From: Peptostreptococcus russellii
GTDB lineage: Bacteria; Bacillota; Clostridia; Peptostreptococcales; Peptostreptococcaceae
Length of the DNA: 64,000 nt
Assembly: GCF_900110295.1 (NCBI RefSeq)
Contig: NZ_FODF01000001.1
Location: forward strand, 124,001 to 188,000
Direction: 5' to 3'
The number at the start of each line of letters is the position of its first letter. Within the stretch, counting starts at the first letter, position 1. The translations under genes and the position numbers were made by a program. Below the pieces are notes generated by a model. It was not told the DNA's origin. It did not search any database and was given only the letters and a program-made list of their open reading frames with translations. This document shows, in pieces, positions 42,679-53,041 of the stretch.

Positions 42679-44325
42679 ATGAGTAAAGAATTAGCTGAGT
42701 TATTATTCCCAGATATTGATAAAACAATAGAATATTATGAAGAACTATATCCAAAAAGAGAGCTGGAAAAAAAGGCAAAGGTTACTAGATTGGGACCAAG
42801 TCCAACTGGATTTATACATTTAGGAAACTTATATGGTGCTCTTGTAGATGAAAGAATGGCACATTTAAGTGGTGGACCAATGCTTCTTAGAATAGAAGAT
42901 ACAGACCACAAGAGAAAGGTAGAAGGATCAGAGGAGCTTATTATAAACTCACTGAAGTTCTTTGGTATAGAGTTTGATGAAGGTGTTACTCTTGACGGCG
43001 AAAAAGGAATTTACGGTCCTTATAGACAGAGTGACAGAAAAGAAATATATCAGACAGCTGCAAAATATCTTACAGAAAAAGGATTTGCATATCCTTCTTT
43101 CATAACTGAGGAAGAAATGGCAAAACTTAGAGAGCAGCAAGAAAAAGAAGGTGTGAACACTGGATATTACGGAAAGTGGGCTACAGACAGAAATCTTACT
43201 TTAGAACAGATAAAAGAAAAGATTGATGCTAATGAACCATGGACATTGAGACTTAAGTCAAGTGGAGATCCCGAAGTAGCAATGAAGTTTAAAGATGGTA
43301 TACGTGGTGAGATAACTGTTAGACAGAATAATCTTGATGTTGTAATTTTAAAGAACAATGGAATACCTACATATCATTTTGCTCACGTTGTTGATGATCA
43401 TTTTATGAGAATAACAGATGTTGTAAGAGGTGAAGAATGGCTTTCTACTTTACCAATACATTTAGAACTATTCTATGTAATGGGATGGAAGAGACCTAAC
43501 TACAATCATACTGCTCATCTTATGAAGATAGAAGATAGTGGAAAGAAGAGAAAGCTTTCAAAGAGAAAAGATCCAGAACTTTCTTTAGAATACTATATGA
43601 GAGATGGTTATTTCCCAGAAGCTGTAACTGAATATCTTATGACTTTAATGAATTCAAATTATGAAGAATGGAGAATGAAAAATCCAGATGCAGCATATAC
43701 TGATTTCAACTTTAAGACAAAGAATATGAGTTCTTCAGGGGCTTTATTTGATTTAAATAAGCTAAATGATATATCAAAGGATGTTCTAGTAAAGATGTCT
43801 GTAGAAAAAATAATGGACTTTATGCTTGACTGGTCATCTAAGTTTAATAAGGATGCTCATGAAAAGCTTACAAAGTATCATGACGATTTAATAAAGCTTC
43901 TTTCAATAGGAAGGGGTGGGAAGAAACCTAGAAAGGATCTTATGAATTGCACTCAGATAATGGATTTTATAGGATATTATTTTGATGAAGGTTTCGAACA
44001 CAGAGATTCACTTCCAGAAAGAGTTTCTAAAGAAGATGCTAAAAATATAGTTACAGAGTATCTTAAAATGTATAATCAGGAAGATACAAATGAAGAGTGG
44101 TTTGAAAAGATAAAAGAAATAACAGATAAAAATGGATTTACATCAAACAATAAAGAGTTTAAAAAGAATCCAGAAGCCTTCAAGGGAAATGTTACAGACG
44201 TATCAACAGCAGTTAGACTAGCAGTAGTTGGTAGAACTCAGTCACCTGACTTATGGAGCATACAGCAAATAATGGGTGAAGAAAGAGTTAAGGCAAGAAT
44301 TAGAAAGTTTCTTGAAACATTATAA
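42679..44325 (+). CDS. gltX: Glutamyl-tRNA synthetase
   Basis: Class I synthetase, 548 residues, with RLGPSPTGFIHLGNLYGALV (HIGH motif as HLGN), HFAHVVDDHFMRITDVVRGEEW and KLSKRKDPELSLEYY (KMSKS, about 291). A 30-residue N-terminal extension and extra C-terminal length are shared by clostridial forms. No GlnRS in the window; non-discriminating charging with GatCAB is usual in the group. The only binding site (GGAGG 42654-42658) is 20 bases from the ATG, with a GGG/CCC mini-hairpin between. Confidence 0.95.
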   Translation: MSKELAELLFPDIDKTIEYYEELYPKRELEKKAKVTRLGPSPTGFIHLGNLYGALVDERMAHLSGGPMLLRIEDTDHKRKVEGSEELIINSLKFFGIEFDEGVTLDGEKGIYGPYRQSDRKEIYQTAAKYLTEKGFAYPSFITEEEMAKLREQQEKEGVNTGYYGKWATDRNLTLEQIKEKIDANEPWTLRLKSSGDPEVAMKFKDGIRGEITVRQNNLDVVILKNNGIPTYHFAHVVDDHFMRITDVVRGEEWLSTLPIHLELFYVMGWKRPNYNHTAHLMKIEDSGKKRKLSKRKDPELSLEYYMRDGYFPEAVTEYLMTLMNSNYEEWRMKNPDAAYTDFNFKTKNMSSSGALFDLNKLNDISKDVLVKMSVEKIMDFMLDWSSKFNKDAHEKLTKYHDDLIKLLSIGRGGKKPRKDLMNCTQIMDFIGYYFDEGFEHRDSLPERVSKEDAKNIVTEYLKMYNQEDTNEEWFEKIKEITDKNGFTSNNKEFKKNPEAFKGNVTDVSTAVRLAVVGRTQSPDLWSIQQIMGEERVKARIRKFLETL

Positions 44326-44534: not shown

Positions 44535-44742
44535 ATACGTACAAAAACTTTACAAATGAACAATAAAATTCAATAAACAAAAACAAAATACGAACAATAA
44601 ATAGGCAAAATAGGTTGTATAATTCGATAAAAAGGCTTTTTTAAGGGGTATTTATAAAAAAAATAAAAAAAAATACGAATTTACTATTGCAATATTTTAC
44701 AAATACGAATAAAATAGAGATGTAAGGTAAAAAACATACGAA
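44535..44742 (+). repeat. Array of ATACGAA boxes upstream of purC
   Basis: ATACGTA at 44535 and ATACGAA at 44588, 44673, 44703 and 44736; an inverted TTCGAT lies at 44623. Start-to-start spacings of 53, 85, 30 and 33 bp are close to 5, 8, 3 and 3 helical turns. One copy lies in the promoter spacer and one just after the expected start. Reminiscent of PurR PurBoxes (core CGAA). Confidence 0.7.
44687..44715 (+). promoter_or_regulatory. Promoter of purC-purF
   Basis: TTGCAA (44687-44692), 17-bp spacer holding an ATACGAA box, TAAAAT (44710-44715). Confidence 0.65.
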
Positions 44743-44783: not shown

Positions 44784-45488
44784 ATGGAAAAATTAGAGCA
44801 ATTATATGAAGGAAAAGCAAAGAAGGTATTTAAAACAGATGACAAGGACTATTTAATAGTATCATATAAAGATGATGCAACTGCATTTAACGGTCTTAAG
44901 AAGGGTACAATAATGGGTAAGGGCGTTATAAACAATCTTATGTCTAATCAGTTATTCCAGTACCTAGCTGAAAATGGAATAGAAACTCACTACGTAAAGA
45001 CTTTAAATGACAGAGAAACTGTAGTGAAGGCTGTAGAAATAGTTCCACTAGAAGTAATAGTAAGAAACGTTGCAGCAGGAAGTTTTTCTAAGAGATTAGG
45101 TGTTGAAGAAGGTGTAGTATTCGAACAGCCTACAGTAGAGTTTTCTTATAAGAATGATGATTTAGGAGATCCACTAATTAATGATTCATTTGCGATCGCT
45201 CTAAAACTAGCAACTCAGGACGAAATAGATAAGATAAAATCAATGGCTTTAAAGGTAAATGAATTACTAAAAGCATATTTTTTAGAAAATAATATAAAAT
45301 TAATAGATTTTAAGTTGGAGTTTGGTAGATTCCATGGGGACATAATATTAGCTGATGAAATATCTCCAGATACTTGCCGTCTTTGGGATAAGGAAACAAA
45401 TACAAAGCTTGATAAGGACAGATTCAGAAGAGATATGGGCGATGTAGAGGGTGCATATCTTGAAGTAAGAAACCGTCTAGGATTTTAG
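44784..45488 (+). CDS. purC: SAICAR synthetase PurC
   Basis: Condenses CAIR with aspartate in IMP synthesis. 234 residues: [94 protein letters not shown] precedes the ATG. Eight bp before purF; no other pur gene is adjacent. Confidence 0.97.
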
Positions 45489-45496
45489 GAGAGCAT

Positions 45497-46930
45497 ATGA
45501 GAGACGATATAATGACTGGTTTAAAAGAAGAGTGCGGAGTATTTGGTGCATATGATTTTGACGGCGAAGATATAGCATCATATATATACTATGGTTTATT
45601 TGCATTACAACACAGAGGGCAGGAAAATGCTGGTATATCTGTAACTAAGACAGCTGAAGATTGTAGAAATGTAACTTTTCATAAGGGACAAGGTCTTGTT
45701 AACGAAGTATTTGATAAAAAGACACTAAATTCTTTAAAGGGGAATTTAGGAGTTGGACATGTTAGATACTCTACAGCAGGTGGTCTTGGTATAGAATGTG
45801 CTCAACCTTTTGTTATACATTATATAAAGGGTATTCTTTCAATGGCACATAATGGTAATTTAACAAATGGTGCAGAACTTAAGAATGAGCTTGCTATGAC
45901 AGGAGCGATATTTCAGACAACTACAGATTCTGAGGTAATAGCTTATCTTATAGCTAGAGAAAGATTACATACTTTATGTATAGAAGATGCTGTAAAGAGC
46001 GCAACTCAGAAGCTTCAGGGGGCATTTTCATTAGTAGTTTCTAGTCCAGCTAAGCTTATAGGTGCTAGAGATAGATTTGGATTTAGACCACTATGTATTG
46101 GTAAAAAAGATAATACTTATTTCCTAAGTTCTGAATCAGCAGCTTTAGACACAATAGGAGCTGAATTTATAAGAGATGTAGAGCCTGGAGAAATTGTTAC
46201 TATAAAGGATGGAAAAATAGAATCAGACTATTTTGCAGAATCAAAAGAAAAGGCTAGATGTATATTTGAATATATTTATTTTGCAAGAACAGACAGCTGT
46301 ATTGATGGTCAAAGCGTTTATTCTTCAAGAGTAAGAGCAGGGGAACTTTTAGCTGAAAACTATCCAGTAGATGCAGATCTTGTAGTAGGAGTACCTGAAT
46401 CAGGTCTTGCAGCGGCAGTAGGCTATTCTCAAAAATCAGGAATACCATATGGTATGGCATTTTATAAGAACAGTTATGTGGGAAGAACATTTATAAAACC
46501 TAAGCAAAATGAGAGAACAGCAGGGGTAAAGGTTAAGCTTAATGTTATTACAGAAGTAGTAAAAGGTAAGAGAGTAGTAATGGTAGACGACTCTATAGTA
46601 AGGGGTACAACTATAAGAAATATAGTAAAGATGCTTAAAGAAGCAGGTGCTTTAGAGGTTCATGTTAGAGTGAGTTCTCCACCTTTTAGACATCCTTGTT
46701 ATTATGGAACAGATGTACCAAGTAGAGATAATTTAGTTGCTGTAAATCATACAATTGAAGAAATAAGAGAAAGTATTGATGCAGATTCACTAGGATATCT
46801 TGATGAAAAAGATTTGCCAGAGCTATGTCCAGGATTAGAATTTTGTGACGCATGCTTTACAGGCAAATACAAGGGAGGAATTCCTTCAGACCCATCAAAG
46901 AGCGGTTGTTGTTCCTCAAAGTTAGTTTAA
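45497..46930 (+). CDS. purF: Amidophosphoribosyltransferase PurF
   Basis: First committed step of purine synthesis, PRPP + Gln to phosphoribosylamine. 477 residues. A 12-residue propeptide precedes the nucleophile Cys13 in KEECGVFGAYDF; glutaminase loop LQHRGQENAGI; PRPP motif VVMVDDSIVRGTTIRNIV. Cysteines in ARCIFEY, FRHPCYYG and CDACF match the [4Fe-4S] type of B. subtilis. Start 45497 has AGGAG 5 bases upstream; ATG 45512 is an alternative. Confidence 0.97.
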   Translation: MRDDIMTGLKEECGVFGAYDFDGEDIASYIYYGLFALQHRGQENAGISVTKTAEDCRNVTFHKGQGLVNEVFDKKTLNSLKGNLGVGHVRYSTAGGLGIECAQPFVIHYIKGILSMAHNGNLTNGAELKNELAMTGAIFQTTTDSEVIAYLIARERLHTLCIEDAVKSATQKLQGAFSLVVSSPAKLIGARDRFGFRPLCIGKKDNTYFLSSESAALDTIGAEFIRDVEPGEIVTIKDGKIESDYFAESKEKARCIFEYIYFARTDSCIDGQSVYSSRVRAGELLAENYPVDADLVVGVPESGLAAAVGYSQKSGIPYGMAFYKNSYVGRTFIKPKQNERTAGVKVKLNVITEVVKGKRVVMVDDSIVRGTTIRNIVKMLKEAGALEVHVRVSSPPFRHPCYYGTDVPSRDNLVAVNHTIEEIRESIDADSLGYLDEKDLPELCPGLEFCDACFTGKYKGGIPSDPSKSGCCSSKLV

Positions 46931-48316: not shown

Positions 48317-51300
48317 TTACTTAATTACTGAGTTTATAAAATTTTTACTAATTGAATCGTTTCCACCAATGATATTTATATTTTTTATACTAGAATTTTG
48401 CAATAATTTGGATGTTGAAATATCATTTTCATTCACAAGAATTAGAGGCATATTAGTTTTTGGAATAATGGCACCTGATACAAGAGCATCAATACCTGTT
48501 ACACCATTAGCAATATGTATAGATTTTGCATTGGGATATGCTAAGTTAGCTATCATTCTTGAAGTTTCATATCTATTCTCTCCAGCAATTCTGTTTGTTT
48601 TGAATTTGTTTAATGAATTTTCTACATTCCTGCTTACTGAGTTTGTTCCACCTATTATATGAACTTTTTTGATACTTTTAGTATTCATAAAATCAATGGC
48701 AGATTTATCTATTTTTTCTGGACTTGTAAGTATTACAGGTGCATTTACTTTAGTTGAAAAGTTTGCAACAGAAAGCCCATCTGCAATATTTGTTCCATCA
48801 ACGACAAAGACTTCATCATATTTTGAGTCTTTGTACATCTGTTCGGCAAGTTTTATAGAAGTTTTATATCTATCTTCACCTGCAATTCTATTTACCTTTA
48901 TTCCATTATTTTCAAGTTCCTTAACAACGTTTTCTCCTATAGAATTTTCTCCACCAACTATATCTACAGAACTTGTATTTAGTCTCTTTAACTCATCGAG
49001 AACGGATTTATCCAGAAAATCTTTACCTGAAAGTAGAATAGGAGAATCCAATCTCTTTGCATGAACAGGAGAAATAAGTGAATCCGCTAGTTGTGTTGAT
49101 GAAACTAGAATCACTTTATCTGCATTTTTAAAATATTTTTTAGAAATTTCAGTAGCTGTATGAATTCTCGTTTTACCTTCAACACGAGAAATAGTTTTAT
49201 CTTTACTATTTACTGAATTTGAATTGCCTGATGAGCTATGAGAAGGCGTTTCTATAAAAATCTTTTGCATTTCGTTGCTTTCAAATAACTTAGCATGTTC
49301 AGGATTACGAGATATAAGCTTTACAGTTACAATATTTTTTTCAGTATCCATATTATCTTTAAATGCCGCTTCGTCAAGTTTAATTAATGAATTAGGTAAT
49401 TTAACCGCTTCTAAAAGACAACTTTTAAAAGCTCCATATTCTATTTCTTCTATGCCTTCTTCAAGTATAAGTTTTTTAGTATGTCTGAACTTTACATTTT
49501 CTTCAAATGCGAGTTTTCCAATCTTTTTTACACTTCCAGGGATTTTAATCTCTTTACATCTTTGTCCTGAAAATGCTTTATATTCAATAGTTTCAACACT
49601 AGATGGAATATGAAGTTCTGTAAGAGGAGCGCCAACGAATGCAGATTTTCCTATTCTCTTTACAGTATCAGGTATTTCAATATTCTTAAGATATATATTT
49701 CTTGAAAGAATACCATCAGGTATTTCGTCCATTCCTCTAGAGAACTTTATATTTTCTATAAGGTTAAGAGAGAAACATCCTGAACCCATCTTTGTTACTG
49801 AATCTGGAATTTTAAGATCCTTAAGTTGGTTTGCGTTGAAAGCTGAGTCTCCTATAGTTGTTAGAGACGAAGGAAGATCAACGTGGCTTAAATTATTTTG
49901 CCTAAAGGCACTATCCTCAATAACTTCTACTTTATCTGGTATTTTTACAGTTTTAAGTCCAAGTGGAGAAGATACGTCATCTGTTCTGTAAACAACACCT
50001 TCTGTAGTCATAAAGGCTTCTTTTCCTATAGCAGTAACAGGTTTTCCATCAGGAGTAGTGTCTGGTATTATAAGGAATTTATTAACCTTATACTTTTCAG
50101 CGCCTAATTTAGAATATCCTGTAATTTTAGAGCCTTCGTATGTGAAGTCATCTTTAGTCCATTTCATTTCTTCTTTTATTTCAAGACTTTTTATTGAATT
50201 TTTAAGTTCAGAAAGAGCATTATCTACATCAGTCTGTTCAGCATCGTCATTTTCAAATATCTTTTGAGCCTCAGCAAGAGCAGTCTTAAATTTGCTCCAG
50301 CTTTCTGCAGTATAAAGTTTTTCATTATAATCTCTGATATCCTTAATCTCATTTTCAAGACTTGTTTTTATAACATTAGCAGGCGAAAGATTCTTAATAG
50401 CATCATTAAGTTTCTTATTTGCATTGTCTATTTCTTTTTGATTAGAAGCTTCATTTTTAAATACTTTTTTTGCTTTATTAAGAACTTCATTCATTTTATT
50501 CCATGATTTTTCTTTGTATTCTTCAGGAATCAAGTTTAAAACAGATCTTATAGTAGAGAATAAAGGCTCTCTATTTATATTACTAGATACAAGGATAAAC
50601 TTCTGGTATTCACTTGAGTACATATATGTGTCAGAAGTAAGATGCTTAGGATTTCTTGTATATAAATATACTTGTCCCTTTCCATCTTTTCCAGGATTAT
50701 CCTTAAATACATAGTGTTTAATCTTAAACACACTATAAGGAATATGAACTTCCTCAAGCTTGTTATTCATAAAACTGTAGTTATCAATTTGAATTTTGGA
50801 AACATCATCGCTAATTTCAAGTTCAGAAATTTTATTGTTTTTAAAGGCTTCACTTCCTATTTTTAAAACAGATGCAGGAATATAAAGCTTTGTTATATCA
50901 TTGTTTGCGAAAGCAAAAGTATCAATGGCAAATACACCATCTGGAATATGAAGCTCTGTAAGTTTATTATCTGCAAAAGCACTTGAATCAATGATAAATT
51001 TACTGTATCCATCTTTCATTTCAGGTAGAGTAAGTTTTTCAATTCCGAGATTGTTGAATGACTCTTTTCCTATACCCCTTATTTTCTTAATAACAGTTTT
51101 ATCATTTTCTTTGATTTTAACTTCATAAGGTATTACAAGATGTTTTTCAGTCTTGATTTTTTCATGACCCTTCTTAGAAAGACCTGTTATAGCAAAGTAA
51201 GTAGGAGAATCTAATATTGTAGAAGGAATGTCTCCGTATGTGAAATCTTCAGAAGCCCATACTGATGATTCAGTATCAGATTTTGCAGCAATCTTGATTT

Positions 51301-53041
51301 TAACTGTAGTACTATTTGGATCAGAAGGGTTTATATTTGTTTCCAGCTCATTGGATTCATTAATATCAAATCTATCCAAGTTCCACTGAGGTTTTTCCTT
51401 AGAATCAACGATAGTATTTCCGTCTTTGTATGTTGTTGTTCCATAAGAGAATGGTATCTTCTTTAGCTTTTCTTCTAAATCTTTTTTAGAAATATTTTTA
51501 TCTACCTTTAAAATACCAAGATCAACTACACTATTTTCAATTAAAAAAGATGTCTTAGTTATGAAAACTTCTCTGCTAGTTGGAACATGAAGAGGGGAAT
51601 TGACTGAATTTATATTTCCCTCCATGATTTTAACTGGAGCACCTGCTTTAGAAATATTTAGCTTAACTTTTGGAGAATACTTAAGTGCTGAAGAACCAAG
51701 AAGTTCAAACTTTTCTCCAATATTCAATGTTCCTTCGAGGTTAGAACAGTTTTTAAAAGCGTCTCTATCTATTGAAAGAAGTGAATCTGGGAAGTTGAAT
51801 TCAGTTAGACTTTTACAATTAGTAAAAGAATTGAACCCGATTTTTTTAAGTCCTTCATTGGCAACTATTGTTTTTACAGTAGAAGCTACGAAAGCAAGGT
51901 TATCAACTTCTTCTAATTCTTTGTTGAAGGTTACAGAGTCAATTTTGCTTTTAGAAAATGCCTGTTTACCTATTTTTTCAACAGTTACACCATCGATTTT
52001 TTCAGGAATAACTACGTCTTTATCAGTACCATTATACTTAGTAATAGTTTTTGTATCTTTATTAAAAATAAAGTTTGAAGCATCGGTTTCTTTATTTGTA
52101 GATACTGGATTTAATTTTATATTTATTTTTATTCTATCCAGTCCGCAAGTATCGCATCCTTCAAAATGTCCTGAAATGGTATTAGATTTGGATAAATTAA
52201 AATCATCAAGTTCCCATACAAGTGTATATGGTAAAGTAGAAAAGTCGTTTGTAGTGGAACCTATTTTGAAAGGAATTTTTTCAAGTTCTTTTTTCAACTC
52301 TTCTTTATTGATACTTTCTTTAACATCAATAGTTCCTAAATCTACTGAATAATTATCTTGATTACTTCCCTTAAAAGCACCTGAAGAAAGAAAAACATCT
52401 CTTGTATTAGGTAGGGAAATAGGAAGGTTAATATCATACAAATTATTTTCGTAGATAGCAATAGGAATACCCTTGTTAGCTATAGTAATCTTCATATTAT
52501 TGCAACCTTTGAAAGCAGAGGTAAGGACTTTTTCAAGATTTTCCCCTAAAATTATTTCTCGTGAGATTTTAGTGCAATTTAAAAAAGCATATTTTCCTAT
52601 GGATACTAAAGAATTTGGAAAATTTATATTTTCCAGGTTGGAGCAGTTAGAAAAAGCCCCATCACCAATTTTTTCTAGACCTTCGTTAAGAGCTACTGTT
52701 TTTACAGTAGAAAGTCCAAAAGCCCCATCACCAATTTCTTTCAATTCTTTGTTGAAGGTTACAGAGTCAATTTGGCTTTTAGAAAATGCCTGTCTACCTA
52801 TTTTTTCAACAGCTACACCGTCAATTTTTTCAGGTATGACTACATCTTTGTCAGTACCTTTGTATTTTTTGATAGTTTTTATTCCTTTATCGAATTCAAA
52901 ACTATCTTCAGATGTTTCAGCTTGTTCTGAAACAAGTTCATCTGTTATTTGTGAAAGATTTTCTTCAGCAGCAAATGAACCGACTGGCATCATTGAAATT
53001 GTTAACAATAATGACAGCAACGTTGTTGTAATTTTTTTCAT
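48317..53041 (-). CDS. Large surface protein: BspA-type leucine-rich repeats with CWB2 cell-wall anchors
   Basis: 1574 residues, largest gene here. Signal peptide ending SFAAEE; LRR_5 (BspA-like) repeats at about 80-220, 350-500, 650-800 and 1000-1250 (pattern KIGxxAFxxxxLxxxxIPxSV); two helical FIVAR-like segments (about 838-885 and 893-954); Ser/Asn linker 1265-1285; three CWB2 repeats (1288-1574) with NRIAGEDRYKTSIKLAE and HIIGGTNSVS. CWB2 anchors proteins to a secondary cell-wall polymer in C. difficile. Residues 47-322 and 323-600 are a direct duplication. Adhesion is a plausible role, not shown. Confidence 0.92.
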   Translation of the reverse strand: MKKITTTLLSLLLTISMMPVGSFAAEENLSQITDELVSEQAETSEDSFEFDKGIKTIKKYKGTDKDVVIPEKIDGVAVEKIGRQAFSKSQIDSVTFNKELKEIGDGAFGLSTVKTVALNEGLEKIGDGAFSNCSNLENINFPNSLVSIGKYAFLNCTKISREIILGENLEKVLTSAFKGCNNMKITIANKGIPIAIYENNLYDINLPISLPNTRDVFLSSGAFKGSNQDNYSVDLGTIDVKESINKEELKKELEKIPFKIGSTTNDFSTLPYTLVWELDDFNLSKSNTISGHFEGCDTCGLDRIKINIKLNPVSTNKETDASNFIFNKDTKTITKYNGTDKDVVIPEKIDGVTVEKIGKQAFSKSKIDSVTFNKELEEVDNLAFVASTVKTIVANEGLKKIGFNSFTNCKSLTEFNFPDSLLSIDRDAFKNCSNLEGTLNIGEKFELLGSSALKYSPKVKLNISKAGAPVKIMEGNINSVNSPLHVPTSREVFITKTSFLIENSVVDLGILKVDKNISKKDLEEKLKKIPFSYGTTTYKDGNTIVDSKEKPQWNLDRFDINESNELETNINPSDPNSTTVKIKIAAKSDTESSVWASEDFTYGDIPSTILDSPTYFAITGLSKKGHEKIKTEKHLVIPYEVKIKENDKTVIKKIRGIGKESFNNLGIEKLTLPEMKDGYSKFIIDSSAFADNKLTELHIPDGVFAIDTFAFANNDITKLYIPASVLKIGSEAFKNNKISELEISDDVSKIQIDNYSFMNNKLEEVHIPYSVFKIKHYVFKDNPGKDGKGQVYLYTRNPKHLTSDTYMYSSEYQKFILVSSNINREPLFSTIRSVLNLIPEEYKEKSWNKMNEVLNKAKKVFKNEASNQKEIDNANKKLNDAIKNLSPANVIKTSLENEIKDIRDYNEKLYTAESWSKFKTALAEAQKIFENDDAEQTDVDNALSELKNSIKSLEIKEEMKWTKDDFTYEGSKITGYSKLGAEKYKVNKFLIIPDTTPDGKPVTAIGKEAFMTTEGVVYRTDDVSSPLGLKTVKIPDKVEVIEDSAFRQNNLSHVDLPSSLTTIGDSAFNANQLKDLKIPDSVTKMGSGCFSLNLIENIKFSRGMDEIPDGILSRNIYLKNIEIPDTVKRIGKSAFVGAPLTELHIPSSVETIEYKAFSGQRCKEIKIPGSVKKIGKLAFEENVKFRHTKKLILEEGIEEIEYGAFKSCLLEAVKLPNSLIKLDEAAFKDNMDTEKNIVTVKLISRNPEHAKLFESNEMQKIFIETPSHSSSGNSNSVNSKDKTISRVEGKTRIHTATEISKKYFKNADKVILVSSTQLADSLISPVHAKRLDSPILLSGKDFLDKSVLDELKRLNTSSVDIVGGENSIGENVVKELENNGIKVNRIAGEDRYKTSIKLAEQMYKDSKYDEVFVVDGTNIADGLSVANFSTKVNAPVILTSPEKIDKSAIDFMNTKSIKKVHIIGGTNSVSRNVENSLNKFKTNRIAGENRYETSRMIANLAYPNAKSIHIANGVTGIDALVSGAIIPKTNMPLILVNENDISTSKLLQNSSIKNINIIGGNDSISKNFINSVIK
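51908..52032 (-). repeat. Internal direct repeat, copy B
   Basis: Near-identical to copy A at an offset of exactly 828 bp (276 codons); encodes GTDKDVVIPEKIDGVTVEKI and DSVTFNKELEE. Confidence 0.85.
52736..52860 (-). repeat. Internal direct repeat, copy A
   Basis: Best conserved part of the duplicated unit; encodes GTDKDVVIPEKIDGVAVEKI and DSVTFNKELKE. Only scattered base changes versus copy B. Confidence 0.85.

Follow-up and report, generated by a model that had tools for sequence, protein, structure and literature searches.

A PurBox-like inverted pair and phased single boxes at the purC promoter of Peptostreptococcus: a probable extended PurR operator

The purine repressor PurR of the Bacillus type is a winged-helix protein with a phosphoribosyltransferase fold, which binds the boxes of PurBox operators and is released by PRPP, with ppGpp opposing. 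The PurR of Lactococcus lactis is an activator that works from a single upstream PurBox. In Bacillus subtilis PurR is a repressor, and its PurBoxes, which are centered on CGAA or TTCG, occur as inverted pairs 16-17 bp apart (PMC8789054). The B. subtilis operator is described as two boxes, yet as many as six PurR dimers can assemble on the operator region (PMC8789054). The footprint extends from the boxes by about 60 bp on the upstream side and 20 bp on the downstream side, and wrapping of the DNA has been proposed (PMC8789054).

The window, a 64,000-nucleotide stretch of Peptostreptococcus russellii DNA, includes purC (44784..45488, + strand; TIGR00081, 257.9 bits, above cut-off) and, 3' of it, purF (45497..46930, + strand; TIGR01134, 510.7 bits, above cut-off). 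The gltX gene ends at 44325, and the 458-bp gap between it and purC holds five copies of ATACGWA, all on the + strand. The purC promoter consists of a -35 element, TTGCAA (44687..44692), and a -10 element, TAAAAT (44710..44715), both on the + strand and separated by a 17-bp spacer. Box A (ATACGTA, 44535..44541) and Box B (ATACGAA followed by C, 44588..44594) are the most distal copies. Box C (ATACGAA, 44673..44679) lies 7 bp 5' of the -35 hexamer, Box D (ATACGAA, 44703..44709) is within the -35/-10 spacer and abuts the -10, and Box E (ATACGAA, 44736..44742) is located at about +17 of the probable start site. The initial annotation had listed these five copies, with CG-to-CG spacings of 53, 85, 30 and 33 bp, and had placed one in the spacer and one past the start site; all of this was borne out, Box E being past the probable start. 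No credible Rfam match to a riboswitch or other RNA leader was found at purC, and no terminator or attenuator was found in its leader. Near the operon, on the - strand at 48317-53041, is a gene for a 1,574-amino acid secreted leucine-rich-repeat protein with apparent cell-wall-binding repeats.

The five copies of ATACGWA are not the product of chance. The motif does not occur with equal density in unrelated gaps, with 0 copies in the remaining intergenic DNA of the window (7,987 bp), and dinucleotide shuffles of the gltX-purC gap (n = 20,000) gave a mean of 0.24 copies and never reached five. Across the whole 2.1-Mb genome, the pattern TACGWA-N15-45-TACGWA was found six times, two of them at the purC promoter. 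We considered the direct array as a genome-wide marker of a regulon and rejected it: the other pairs in this genome fall inside coding regions or in the gap that separates hemC from a formate-transporter gene, and the direct array therefore marks only purC in this genome. The pair in the latter gap (C31:151550-151588) consists of two TACGAA boxes 33 bp apart between hemC and a formate/nitrite-type transporter gene. Since formate feeds purine synthesis, it could be a further target of the same regulator.

The initial annotation had proposed a helically phased array on one face of the DNA. The phasing of the five copies at 10.5 bp gave R = 0.92 (p of about 0.006 for the fixed period and 0.017 over five periods), and the geometry is kept in nine species, as described below. 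That the boxes form a direct array instead of an inverted pair, as had also been proposed, did not hold. The CGAA of Box B (44591-44594) and a TTCG at 44623-44626, part of a TTCGA on the - strand that we call Box B' (44623..44627), form an inverted pair with an outer length of 36 bp, roughly 98-132 bp upstream of the probable start and far 5' of the -35. The direct boxes are thus added to a pair, and the purC promoter carries a real unit made up of an inverted pair and three single boxes that run in phase across the core promoter.

In order to compare this unit among relatives, the purC/purF promoters of nine Peptostreptococcus species were aligned, with species G004 represented by the MV1 record. 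Every species had the array 5' of purC or purF, in line with conservation among relatives, and the conserved operon and promoter were found in records of Peptostreptococcus russellii, faecalis, porci, sp. D1 and sp. MV1. The outer length of the inverted pair was 36 bp in every species, and its right arm always read TTCG. The distance from this arm to Box C was 51 bp in six species, 52 bp in one and 81-82 bp in two, the latter being a shift of 30-31 bp or about three helical turns. Box C had its CG at this place, 7 bp upstream of the -35, in all nine species (as TACGWA in eight and as an inverted TTCGA in one). Box D read ATACGAA and abutted the -10 in eight of the nine, always 30 bp from Box C, and Box E followed 32-33 bp past Box D as NTACGNN, also in eight. 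The -35 was TTGCAA or TTGCCA throughout and the -10 invariant; species G001 has lost Box D and kept TAAAAT. Box A (CG at 44538) had no counterpart at an equal distance in the other species of this comparison and is probably incidental or species-specific, so that of the five copies first reported four are conserved in the genus. In sp. MV1 (G004), purC is absent between gltX and purF and the whole array lies directly 5' of purF; the best purC match in that genome is only 38% identical.

The boxes at purC have the features by which PurBoxes are recognised. B, B', C, D and E each fit an AT-rich, 14-bp box with a central CGAA or TTCG. The inverted pairs of the genus, 36 bp at purC and 35 bp at purE, agree with the published arrangement (a gap of 16-17 bp and an outer length of about 34-35 bp), the purC pair being about 1 bp longer, with 18 bp separating the two 14-bp boxes when CGAA is assigned to positions 6-9. 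Purine genes lie downstream, namely purC-purF and purE-M-N-H-D-L in the genus and guaA in two species only (G001 and G004), where an inverted CGAA..TTCG pair occurs just past the -10. PurR (PF09182) is encoded in all nine Peptostreptococcus genomes and in every genome of the family searched. The PurR of this genome scored 346.8 bits with TIGR01743 (cut-off 258.7) and 255 bits with B. subtilis PurR (1p4a), in a match over nearly the whole length that includes the AKS(S/T)ISEDL segment of the N-terminal DNA-binding domain. No boxes were seen upstream of purR itself in the two upstream regions inspected. The published B. subtilis layout of two boxes only, just upstream of the -35, belongs to the best-known example, is not a defining one and is not that of purC, where C, D and E are conserved as well; these extra boxes, like the downstream box at purE, make the arrangement a variant of the PurBox operator and not an outsider.

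At the second purine operon of the genus, purE-M-N-H-D-L, four species show a CGAA..TTCG pair of 35 bp, and in seven of the eight Peptostreptococcus species located a TTCG follows the purE -10 by 14-15 bp. A scan of other pur promoters had been suggested at the outset; CGAA/TTCG boxes do recur at purE, but the ATACGAA direct array does not. The added boxes at purE are mostly TTCG in the genus, mostly opposite in orientation to the direct boxes of purC and not at the same places. Repetition in the same direction is a trait of purC and does not extend to the regulon. Pairs of 33-35 bp also lie upstream of purE in other families of the order. Across the family, purE promoters contained 67 CGAA/TTCG boxes compared with 34 expected (maximum of 43 in 60 shuffles); of the 48 purE loci of the family that were examined, 10 gave no match to our promoter pattern. 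In most genera of the Peptostreptococcaceae the TTCG lies 14-15 bp past the -10, and the distance to the upstream CGAA varies.

This variation provided an independent test of phasing, in which all 18 genus-level distances between the upstream CGAA and the downstream TTCG were used. Fifteen of them fell within 0.5-2.0 modulo 10.5, and the best period in a scan from 6 to 40 bp was 10.6. The p values, 0.0002 with genera taken as independent and 0.01 with unique distances, are approximate because of relatedness and because the promoter was chosen by its downstream TTCG where there were several candidates. In two genera (g7 and g11) the boxes follow a 32-bp lattice, with CGAAC at -50, ACGTA at -18 and TTCG at +14 relative to the -10 end. 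The purE leaders of several genera also have TTCG-N10-CGAA soon past the start site, another inverted layout built from these boxes.

A search of 84,980 genomes for the core-promoter direct pair found 21 places, five of them at Peptostreptococcus purC/purF, and among recognisable purine promoters the strict pair occurred only there. Three other places, in Bacillus, Lachnospiraceae and Oscillospiraceae, were inspected closely; none had a purine gene directly downstream, and two of the three adjoin XRE-type regulator genes. Within our own genome, an inverted pair near a pbuG-like permease gene was rejected as its operator, as its location, between two gene ends, is away from the permease start. 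At C36:59372-59409, a good inverted pair as long as that at purC lies between two convergent gene ends, with no evident target. The literature searched gave no description of such box arrays in the Peptostreptococcaceae.

Taken together, these data suggest that the purC array is probably an extended PurR operator, in which an inverted PurBox pair is joined by phased single boxes over the core promoter. We base this reading on boxes well above chance, a geometry fixed in nine of nine species (with the caveat that the 30-bp C-D spacing is partly set by the -35/-10 spacing), PurR in all nine genomes, and the boxes and phasing at purE. Counting against it are the slightly long gap of the purC pair, the different places of the boxes at purE, the loss of Box D in G001, the upstream regions of purR that lack boxes and the purE loci that gave no match to the promoter pattern. 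PurR would first occupy the upstream inverted pair (44588-44627), like the PurBox pair of B. subtilis, and further dimers on one helical face would then fill the CGAA boxes C, D and E, which stand singly. When purines are plentiful, this occupancy would block RNA polymerase, and PRPP would release PurR from the operator. We infer PurR binding, cooperativity, and repression rather than activation, from the sequence comparisons.

PurR might instead activate purC from the upstream pair, as the L. lactis protein does, with the core boxes forming a separate repressing or modulating set. The position of the pair well 5' of the -35, and its shift of about three turns relative to the core boxes in two species, would suit such an activator. 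However, the overlap of Boxes D and E with the RNA polymerase footprint points to blocking, and B. subtilis PurR is a repressor (PMC8789054); we regard activation as unlikely. It seems still less likely that a regulator other than PurR reads ATACGAA in the genus, a choice that the initial annotation had left open. The concentration of direct ATACGAA boxes at purC, when purE in the genus has mostly TTCG, and the restriction of the strict pair to Peptostreptococcus purC/purF among recognisable purine promoters would fit a separate regulator. Nevertheless, the inverted pair, spaced nearly as in a PurBox operator, is built from the same CGAA core, the boxes reappear at purE across a family in which every genome searched encodes PurR, and the neighborhood of the purC-purF operon yielded no alternative candidate regulator, so that PurR is the most likely ligand as judged from sequence. 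Least probable of all is that the inverted pair alone is functional and the core boxes belong to the promoter itself rather than to an operator, for instance as a form of extended -10. Box D adjoins the -10 and the C-D spacing tracks promoter spacing, but C, D and E are all conserved in position with E beyond the start site, G001 keeps TAAAAT without Box D, and the direct pair is almost absent elsewhere.

If the array is an extended PurR operator, it is interesting to speculate, as a tentative generalization that we hold to be possible, that PurR of the Peptostreptococcaceae forms a one-faced chain with a period of about 32 bp, nucleated at an inverted pair and extended through single boxes across the -35, the -10 and the start. 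The boxes of such a chain would be a sequence code for a multimer, whereas the Bacillus multimer spreads without described extra boxes. Conserved phased boxes show where additional dimers could sit, and the purC operator allows designed tests of the multimer model.

Compared with known systems, the purC boxes share with the L. lactis PurR sites the CGAA core, a regulator of the PurR family and purine genes downstream, and differ from them in having a pair plus core-promoter boxes in place of a single upstream box that serves activation. The resemblance to B. subtilis purEKBCSQLFMNHD and other PurR operators extends to the central CGAA or TTCG with AT-rich flanks, the inverted pair with centers about three turns apart, the purine genes downstream, a PurR of the TIGR01743 family, and the known ability of B. 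subtilis PurR to spread beyond its two boxes (PMC8789054). Unlike in B. subtilis, the pair at Peptostreptococcus purC is far upstream of the -35 instead of just upstream, its gap is about 1 bp longer, and there are three further conserved boxes, before the -35, in the spacer and past the start. What is novel relative to the published layout is this set of conserved boxes, which occupy the core promoter and continue past it.
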